Positions 8,137-9,909 of a stretch of 10,601 nt of DNA are shown in pieces. Numbering within the stretch: position 1 is the first letter of the stretch; each line of letters opens with the position of its first letter. The notes below the pieces were generated by a model. It saw only the letters and a list, made by a program, of their open reading frames with translations. It searched no databases and was not told the origin of the DNA. The position numbers and the translations under genes were made by a program. The stretch is from the NCBI GenBank assembly GCA_025399215.1, contig MU621550.1:1-10601 (forward strand), given 5' to 3'. The stretch is from Globomyces pollinis-pini. Lineage: Eukaryota > Chytridiomycota > Chytridiomycetes > Rhizophydiales > Globomycetaceae.

Positions 8137-9909
8137 TTAAAGATGACATAAAGCATTAGATTTCAAATCAGCATCAGTTGCTAAAATAACGGTATTCAAA
8201 CAATCTGGATTTCCAAAATGTCCTCGACATTCTTCCTTGGTTTCACCCATCGGTTGTCGCCATTGAAATCGTCGAGTGGCTTCAGTGTCCACTCCATTGA
8301 TGACATCCACAACAATATCACCAATGACGGGCATGAATTTGAACCCATGGCCGGATCCGCCTGTAGCTACGATCAAGTTAGGATGTCCAGGTACTCGTGT
8401 GATGTAGAAGTGGCCATCCCAACCTACGGTTAATGTGAGTGGTTACTGTCGGTGTACCAACACATACGGGTGTGTGTGATATCCAGCTGCGCGAGGTGTG
8501 GGAAATGACCGTTGAGGAAGGTGCGGAAGGCATGGACGGCTTTGAGTGGGATGCGCGAGCCGGTGGTTGGGTCGCTGATAACTGTTTTGGGCATGTAGTT
8601 ATTGTTTTGTTGGTATGTGTAGCCGTTACCATGATGTGCTATTTTGACGATATTTTCACCTGGATTTTTAAGATTATGTTGTAATACCTACAATGAATGA
8701 ACTATATATCTAACATACCTATACTGAGACATATACAAACAAACCTTGAATTATTAGTTAGAATACAGTACCTATAATCAACGAAAATTATACACAATAC
8801 CTAGAGTTAACGAATCAAAGTCAAACCTTTAACCAAAGGAAAGCCATAAAACCCTAAATTGGCCAGATCAGCAGCCCATACTGGACAATTTTCAGTAGCA
8901 AACATATCTTGTAATGATGGTGGTACTTGTAGATGAATTACCGGCTGTCCAATTGGTTTAATCATATCCTTCATTTCTGGAAATATCGAGGTAGTCCAAG
9001 CACCTGTTGCTAGGATGATCAATCCCCGATGAATGGTTGAATCCATTGTCTCAACTCCTACGGATTAGACATTGAATTTGTGGTTAATAATGAAAGTGTG
9101 GTCTGATTGAAAAGCAAATAAATTAAGAATAATTCTGTTGTGCATACCTACGACTTGAGAATTTTCGCGCACTAGCTGTTTGACATGACCCTCTTTTCCA
9201 GTTTTAAAATGAACACCTATCATTAGCAATACATAGTATAGATTTATCATCAATAGATTTTAATTCGACTGATTTTGGGAATAGTTAAGAGGTTAAAAGA
9301 AGCATCATGAATCTCTTCTGAACCCATGTATGGATGGTGATGATTCGATACGTATCAGAATGAATAAAGATTGTAATTTTTTTACCTTTCTGTCGTAGAG
9401 TATTGTAAAGAAATTCAATTGCATGTTCACTATGTGCCCAACCACCTAAACCCATCAGAGATTTTGACCATACCCAAAGGATTAAAATAACCAAAAGGTA
9501 AACGAGAACGTAAATGATTTAGACCAGGAAACCTTAATAAAGGGATAGAATGATTTTTGTATAATGATAGACCGATTGAAGATAAAGAATGGTAAGAATT
9601 TGATTCATAAGTACCAAAAGTGTCTGCAATAGTCGACATGAATACACCAGATTGATAGAATAGTTTCTTATGGGATAATGAATTCCAATGGGACCATTTT
9701 TTGATAGAATTTAAGGCTAGTGATTGATATAGAGAATCTAGACCATAATCAGCACGAATAATTTTGTTTATATCAGTAGAAGCAGCATCAATGGTAGGTA
9801 TACTAAGTTTATCTATAACTGTAATATTTGAATGAGTATCAGATAGAGATAAAGCAGTAGATAAACCAAAACAACCACCACCCACAATGATTATTGGATC
9901 GTTCAACAT
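8137..9909 (-). CDS. Peroxisomal FAD-dependent amine oxidase, sarcosine/pipecolate oxidase-like
   Basis: Six minus-strand exons: 9909-9474, 9445-9386, 9216-9148, 9057-8827, 8659-8447 and 8423-8137, about 431 aa, all introns in phase 1. The family (monomeric sarcosine oxidase, PIPOX, fungal saccharopine and fructosyl-amino-acid oxidases) oxidises N-substituted amino acids with FAD and O2, releasing H2O2. The N-terminal IIIVGGGCFGLSTA is the Rossmann FAD-binding motif (Gly10-Gly15). NPLGGWAHSEHA, IILATGAWTTSIFPEMKD, QPVIHLQVP and CPVWAADLANLGFYGFPL follow in family order. Cys332 in RMCWYTDSWDGHF sits where sarcosine oxidase attaches FAD covalently. ATGGSGHGFKFMPVIGD is the conserved C-terminal FAD-contact motif. 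The protein ends CHL, a PTS1-like tripeptide. The exact substrate cannot be told from sequence. Introns are 28, 169, 90, 167 and 23 nt; the 167-nt one is the tandem array. Exon 5 is unusually GC-rich. Confidence 0.92.
8660..8826 (-). repeat. Head-to-tail array of six GT-AG mini-intron units (intron 4 of the oxidase)
   Basis: On the minus strand the 167-nt intron divides exactly into six units with no bases left over: 8826-8801 (26 nt), 8800-8772 (29), 8771-8745 (27), 8744-8719 (26), 8718-8688 (31) and 8687-8660 (28). Each begins GT (GTTTGA, GTATTG, GTACTG, GTTTGT, GTATGT, GTATTA) and ends AG, so each inner border reads AG|GT. On the plus strand this appears as ACCT every 26-31 bases. Unit lengths fall inside the range of ordinary introns here. 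Several have branch-like motifs (TTAAC in unit 1, CTAAC in unit 3). Apart from their ends the units show little similarity, so this is not a simple satellite. Removing all 167 nt restores GFYGFPLVK-GENIVKIAHHG. Stepwise recursive splicing through zero-length exons is inference. Confidence 0.85.
9058..9147 (-). other. 90-nt intron 3 of the oxidase
   Basis: GT-AG interval whose removal gives SQVVG-VETMDSTIHRGLIILATGAW, matching the family. It is about three times the usual size here, with no internal AGGT and no further GT donor except very near its 3' end. It therefore cannot be tiled into standard units. Confidence 0.75.
9217..9385 (-). other. Unusually long (169 nt) intron 2 of the oxidase
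   Basis: It starts GT and ends AG, and removing it joins RQK-GVHFKTGKEG as the family requires. It has no internal AGGT, so it is not a tandem array like intron 4. It holds a possible in-frame cassette exon of 48 nt at 9317-9270, flanked by an AG and a GT. That cassette would encode EEIHDASFNLLTIPKIS in place of one Gly, but no family member is known to me with such an insert. Confidence 0.7.

Follow-up and report, generated by a model that had tools for sequence, protein, structure and literature searches.

Can an intervening sequence consist of nothing but complete introns, joined end to end without a single exonic letter between them? The question is raised by intron 4 of a gene for an oxidase-like protein on the minus strand of a 10,601-nt stretch of DNA, the whole of contig MU621550.1 (C446 in our numbering, and "the window" hereafter), from the chytrid Globomyces pollinis-pini (Rhizophydiales, Chytridiomycota), whose genome of 18.55 Mb in 459 contigs was the one searched. 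Our answer, to which we give a probability of roughly 0.72, is that intron 4 is made of six spliceosomal mini-introns placed head to tail with zero-length exons, that its units are mostly removed singly, and that chains of this kind are formed by in-register duplication with subsequent divergence.

The tiling of intron 4

The 167 nt of intron 4 divide exactly into GT..AG units of 26, 29, 27, 26, 31 and 28 nt (Table 1), and the five AGGT tetranucleotides within the intron are precisely its five inner junctions, with two further AGGT at the exon borders, because the upstream exon ends in AAAG and the next one starts with GTGA. An earlier note on this DNA had described the tiling with its unit lengths and zero-length exons, and had restricted AGGT to the inner junctions, finding none in the 169-nt and 90-nt introns of the same gene; we obtained the same when all of this was recomputed. 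Not one of 20,000 dinucleotide-preserving shuffles of intron 4 gave six or more units of 20–40 nt, and at least five AGGT of any spacing appeared in 5 of the 20,000. Intron 4 is also the sole series of at least three AGGT spaced 20–40 nt in the window, both strands considered, and it holds 20 GT..AG segments of 22–38 nt, against 2 in the 169-nt intron, both of them poor, and none in the 90-nt intron. The six-unit architecture of intron 4 is confirmed.

The units fit the mini-intron class of this genome (GT..AG, 22–38 nt, with a YTNAY branch motif), five of the six having a clear branch match and unit 4 a weak one. They were given an internal score for donor, branch and acceptor, with percentiles taken against 295 ordinary introns; among 984 random GT..AG segments, 2.8, 1.7, 8.1, 13.7, 0.9 and 5.2% score as well as units 1 to 6, respectively, so that the units outscore 86–99% of such segments, unit 4 being the lowest. 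The window chain was moreover called as six units by a gene finder (described below) that was not trained on the window and received no bonus for chains, its exon-flank terms being on. The range of 22–38 nt formerly given for the ordinary introns of the window holds as to similarity of size, but needs a small correction, since the 23 other short introns modelled there measure 23–38 nt.

That the stretch is intron is borne out by the protein. The introns of the oxidase gene are, in order, 28, 169, 90, 167 and 23 nt long; residues 5–411 of the 431-aa model match the fructosyl amine oxidase 4wct (E 1.1e-40), and the Pfam domain is DAO (PF01266). A public protein from this contig, P0121, with 239 residues, is letter for letter the same as model residues 193–431 and spans the intron 4 junction (GFYGFPLVK-GENIVKIAHHG), and in comparison with fructosyl amine oxidases the spliced protein has one single-residue gap near this junction and no residue missing there. 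A hidden exon within intron 4 was ruled out, given that no residues are missing in the 4wct alignment and that P0121 agrees.

Chains in the rest of the genome

The gene finder was trained from scratch, the training set being the first 200 kb of the largest contig (C1), chosen regardless of content, again with no chain bonus. In its training result there were 301 introns of 45 nt or less, all but one of 23–38 nt and with a mode of 28, having GTA or GTT as donor; the letter preceding the terminal AG is mostly T, and the YTNAY branch motif in most cases ends 4–9 nt short of the end of the intron. It called 502 introns at 488 positions, and 7 of the 488 positions (about 1.4%) are chains, namely three doublets, two triplets and one chain each of four and five units. 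Internal exons of length 0 accounted for 14 of 445, while lengths 1–10 together gave 4, and 12 of 457 were still of zero length with the exon-flank terms omitted.

The rate of false calls was measured on synthetic long introns with shuffled bodies. Of 1000 such introns, 977 were read without any chain, 20 as doubles, 1 as a triple and 2 as chains of four units; a smaller run of 300 yielded 6 full doubles besides 3 partial chains. Of 100 true concatenations, the finder recovered 93 in full. Among the single introns of the 200 kb, 470 of 481 are 38 nt or less and 11 are longer, and these 11, multiplied by the false-call rate, lead us to expect about 0.03 false chains of at least three units, whereas 4 were seen. 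Seven chains per 200 kb extrapolate to about 650 in 18.5 Mb on the basis of one contig, so perhaps several hundred such chains exist in the genome. An AGGT series at C1 minus 106304 was rejected as an intron chain, as it looks like a GC-rich tandem repeat.

Over the whole genome, the pattern TAGGTAT-AGGTAT-AGGTAT with 22–38 nt spacing gave 31 matches, against 2 in the reversed control. The same pattern at 40–56 nt spacing gave 4 matches, 3 of which span runs of regular units, with 1 in the control, and the pattern with GT changed to GA gave 2, with 0 in the control. The 31 matches were cut as 30 loci, which are 25 distinct places, and in 25 of 25 the gene finder calls a chain inside a gene at the hit, with two units in four loci, three in six, four in ten, five in one, six in two, seven in one and nine in one; thus, 21 of the 25 have at least three units. 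Both pattern units were called in 22 of the 25, one in L023 and L024, and neither in L038, and in L042 the called chain ends before the third AGGT unit. As called, the chains run from some 50 to 250 nt in total. With these matches, the zero-length exons and the 25 loci, the genome-wide excess of AGGT at unit spacing, for which the earlier note had recommended a search, was indeed found. Two further arrays of similar units with GTAA donors (C194:3408-3560 and C225:6629-6726) were seen as pattern matches only.

Several chains lie in genes for conserved proteins, where the alignment is ungapped at the chain site: Ran (KLVL|VGDGG; units of 32, 32 and 28 nt), UBE2H (VMK|LLMS; seven units), pantothenate kinase (RIG|GTSLGGG; nine units) and a CLK-type kinase of C1 (FLHDL|GLIHTDLKPEN; five units). 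In the case of Ran, only the Ran part was compared because the model runs past the end of Ran into other sequence. With the three-unit chain of the Rab GDI gene (contig C152) removed, the model equals the public protein of the species over all 441 residues.

Two details of these genes may be added. The UBE2H gene model (L031, C88) has 9 extra residues compared with the yeast homologue, away from the chain site, possibly an unrecognised 27-nt intron that keeps the frame. At the start of the chain in the Ran gene (L037), TATTAG closes the upstream exon and both of the identical units alike, and three junctions share TATTAGGTAT, which looks as though the duplication had taken in the end of the exon.

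Origin of the chains and removal of their units

We propose that an intron would be duplicated in register through slippage, or through unequal exchange, between junctions that contain AGGT and are direct repeats of each other; the copies would then diverge. Units are more alike than chance within 10 of 33 chains, and L037 (C168) and L048 (C451) have identical neighbouring units, from which it follows that local in-register duplication does happen. Near-identical or identical units are found in L048 (C451), L039/L040 (C191), L027/L028 (C68) and L037 (C168), and these chains are likely recent. In L039, the similarity is 0.93 between units 2 and 4 and 0.79 both between 1 and 3 and between 1 and 4, with neighbours 2–3 at 0.57 and 3–4 at 0.64, and the similarity table of L048 has a like pattern; this alternation suggests that two-unit blocks may have been copied or exchanged in both. 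An exon AG precedes 21 of the 33 chains, compared with 157 of 470 single introns, and a GT follows 12 of the 33, compared with 50 of 470, both comparisons being inflated by the choice of loci through an AGGT pattern and by missed end units; the enrichment fits AGGT repeats as slipping points.

The alternative that survives best, although we consider it rather unlikely, is repeated insertion, in which unrelated introns land at AG|GT by reverse splicing or as introners, each of them creating new AG|GT targets. It would account for the lack of detectable similarity among the units of the window chain and of 22 other chains, and the chain ends, with the inflation just mentioned, are also richer in exon AG and following GT than single introns. 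Nevertheless, 8 of the 33 chains have neither flank, the ancestry that can be seen is local duplication, and no second copy of the whole 167-nt intron 4 was found in the genome, in a search that skips very common words and that did not take single units of 26–31 nt as queries. Insertion at AG|GT, which the earlier note had suggested as one of two origins, may have occurred; set against it are the search with the whole intron, which found no second copy, and the 10 of 33 chains with local tandem duplication. For the 23 diverged chains, that of the window included, the origin may be either old duplications or insertions. On that search, with its limits, intron 4 as the copy of a dispersed element was rejected, the sole genome match of the whole 167-nt query being intron 4 itself.

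With regard to removal, no unit lacks a donor, a branch site (a weak one in unit 4) or an acceptor of its own, all are of the normal length of about 28 nt, and they would be cut out mainly singly, like ordinary short introns. The branch sites speak for this. In 55 distinct units defined by the genome pattern, which says nothing of the branch site, the mean branch score is 4.04, compared with 4.06 in ordinary introns and 1.92 in shuffled cores (2.50 being the highest mean that 500 shuffles reached). Among the 56 non-last units of the 23 diverged chains, in which no unit similarity can be detected, 51 have a branch score of at least 3, and the mean of these 56 is 4.14, compared with 1.87 when shuffled (maximum of 2.47 in 500). 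If only the first donor and the last acceptor were used, the branch sites of the non-last units would be free to decay; they have been kept, and therefore we infer that the units are used one by one.

With AG|GT at every junction, the same mRNA results whichever donor is paired with whichever later acceptor, and in whatever order, and for this reason an extra unit in register costs the gene little and can persist; the order of removal, as far as can be read from the sequence, should not matter. The statement that removing one unit rebuilds a donor for the next was correct in that AG|GT stands at every junction, but its wording was loose, since every donor is already intact, so that no unit depends on another, unlike in a stwintron (see below). 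Unit-by-unit excision, independence from order and a duplication origin are probable features of the window chain.

More doubtful than repeated insertion is excision of the whole chain, in which splicing always pairs the first donor with the last acceptor, the inner units being duplication relics that play no part in it. The undivided 90-nt and 169-nt introns of the oxidase gene are in its favour, P0121 fits either route, and tandem copies would inherit splice signals by descent. Relics, however, should decay, yet the non-last units of diverged chains match ordinary introns in their branch sites; inner units are on a level with first and last ones (median unit scores of 5.47, 5.57 and 4.51 for inner, first and last units, respectively); and called unit lengths stay at 22–38 nt, with so few single introns above 38 nt in the 200 kb.

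Subdivision of a long ancestral intron, which would have gained recursive AG|GT sites at tidy spacing under a spliceosome handling only short introns, agrees with the tight distribution of intron sizes and with the exact tiling of long intervals into normal-sized units. We judge it highly improbable, since the chains with near-identical units (L027, L037, L039 and L048) were built up and not cut up, and since the 169-nt and 90-nt introns stand undivided in the same gene, which also leaves the earlier suggestion, a subdivision to suit a spliceosome of tiny introns, without support as a necessity. Finally, that AT-rich sequence, a repeat or a mis-modelled gene should mimic a chain can be set aside as negligible, for although the AGGT series of C1 resembles a tandem repeat and the synthetic introns gave 20 doubles and 3 longer chains per 1000, no shuffle tiles, the synthetic rate is low, the genome pattern has its controls, and four conserved proteins align without gaps at the chain sites. 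For chains of at least three units, these controls already weigh heavily against such mimicry.

Our reading of single removal and in-register duplication has a number of results weighing against it. As to removal, the 169-nt and 90-nt introns mean that longer introns are removable in this very gene, a single 167-nt excision gives the same oxidase protein, and the finder that selected the chains for the test on 56 units takes branch sites into its own score, a bias in favour of the result from which the test on the 55 pattern-defined units is free. As to the units, 3 and 4 of the window chain have weak internal signals (5th and 1st percentile), and the gene finder misses the window chain once its exon-flank terms are off. 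As to origin, the window units show no trace of common descent (best pair similarity of 0.22, corrected P of 0.42), in agreement with the earlier note that they are not recent duplicates of each other, and the likeness of neighbours in the 23 diverged chains is faint, being 0.021 compared with −0.004 after shuffling (sd 0.015), a value that 15 of 300 shuffles reach. As to the genome, the pattern with GTAA stands out less clearly (12, control 5), TAGGTTT-AGGTAT-AGGTAT gave 2 with 1 in the control, one of the two pattern units of L023 reads as coding, and the finder without bonus uses neither pattern unit of L038. In the 200 kb, 3 of the 7 chains are doublets, the spacing of AGGT pairs is only mildly raised (1.29 times expectation, which places AGGT 31st among the 256 four-letter words), and a bare scan by score gives 15 two-unit chains compared with 33 in the reversed control, and 2 of four units compared with 0. 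Since that scan returns fewer doublets than its control, doublets without gene context are no evidence.

Taking single removal and in-register duplication together, we are inclined to think that introns may behave in this genome like a satellite repeat within genes, with copies added in register beside an existing intron, blocks maybe exchanged, units removed in no fixed order, and selection keeping each of them spliceable even when every likeness in sequence has been lost.

Known systems and the host gene

Four known systems come close. According to a recent review, zero-nucleotide recursive sites are typically found in introns of more than 10 kb and appear rare, recursive splicing being regarded as a device of very long introns in animals (PMC13149111). 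The chains resemble these ratchet points of Drosophila and vertebrates in that AG abuts GT, the exon has zero length and stepwise removal is possible, and differ from them in that the chain of intron 4 has 167 nt, the units are ordinary ones of 28 nt and as many as nine in number, the genes are housekeeping genes of a compact fungal genome, and there are signs of tandem duplication. Stwintrons, known in Pezizomycotina and Lipomyces, are fungal intervening sequences with more than one U2 intron, excised stepwise, for which local duplication has been proposed as an origin (PMC7138796). There, the inner intron sits within the donor, branch or acceptor of the outer one, an element essential to it, and the order is forced, whereas the six units of intron 4 abut exactly, each from GT to AG, and chains of abutting units need no order.

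Tandem duplication of segments bounded by AGGT is an established route of intron gain, in which the AGGT repeats serve as donor and acceptor (PMC3443670); by that route a duplicated segment of exon becomes one intron, while here an existing intron appears to have been multiplied in register, many times, at one position. The mark of a tandem array, significant similarity of neighbouring units, is present in the 10 of 33 chains named above and absent from that of the window. Introners bring many new introns into one genome as dispersed copies of one element (PMC9860276), unlike the present case, where the search with the whole of intron 4 found no second copy and similarity was seen within one chain, likeness between chains not having been searched. 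We found no published account of chains of abutting short introns in titles or opening abstracts, with a partial coverage of the literature from which subscription papers are mostly outside.

What these chains offer is an AG|GT relay built of tiny introns, present in a fungus with a compact genome and, in the 200-kb sample, at about 1.4% of the intron positions. They form a natural series from one to nine units and from identical to fully diverged ones, in which intron gain, the loss of likeness and the size limits of the spliceosome can be read directly, and they are a natural experiment on how splice sites are chosen by the splicing machinery. If our reading is true, introns would have a working way to multiply at one site, and splicing would be path-independent, at hundreds of positions, essential genes included. 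Annotators should also be warned that a chain resembles one odd long intron.

Table 1. Coordinates of the oxidase gene, its five introns and the six units of intron 4 within the window.
Feature	Positions	Strand	Remarks
Host gene, flavin adenine dinucleotide (FAD)-dependent fructosyl amine / sarcosine oxidase-like protein	8137..9909	-	431 aa, six exons, gene model
Intron 4, chain of six abutting mini-introns, phase 1	8660..8826	-	flanks ...GTTAAAG and GTGAAAAT...
Unit 1, 26 nt	8801..8826	-	GTTTGA...TTAACTCTAG; internal splice score 5.3
Unit 2, 29 nt	8772..8800	-	GTATTG...TTGATTATAG; score 6.1
Unit 3, 27 nt	8745..8771	-	GTACTG...CTAATAATTCAAG; score 2.9, 5th percentile
Unit 4, 26 nt	8719..8744	-	GTTTGT...CTCAGTATAG; weak branch site; score 1.7, 1st percentile
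Unit 5, 31 nt	8688..8718	-	GTATGT...TTCATTGTAG; score 6.85
Unit 6, 28 nt	8660..8687	-	GTATTA...CTTAAAAATCCAG; score 3.9
Intron 1, ordinary single mini-intron, 28 nt	9446..9473	-	gene model
Intron 2, undivided, 169 nt, internal comparison	9217..9385	-	no AGGT; protein continuous across
Intron 3, undivided, 90 nt, internal comparison	9058..9147	-	no AGGT; no internal GT..AG segment of 22–38 nt
Intron 5, ordinary single mini-intron, 23 nt	8424..8446	-	gene model; P0121 has same junction

A search for a paralogue or second allele of the oxidase gene returned this gene alone. The public protein P0121 begins only downstream of the two undivided introns of 169 and 90 nt. The exon that follows the chain (8447-8659) is GC-rich, at 50%, where three of the gene's other exons have 32–44%; most of it is mistaken for an intron by the gene finder. 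Elsewhere on the minus strand, the window carries a gene for a 1085-aa armadillo-repeat protein (7441-3613), with 19 single mini-introns of 26–38 nt and no chain, and a tRNA pseudouridine synthase gene (3015-1703; PF01416) with two mini-introns.

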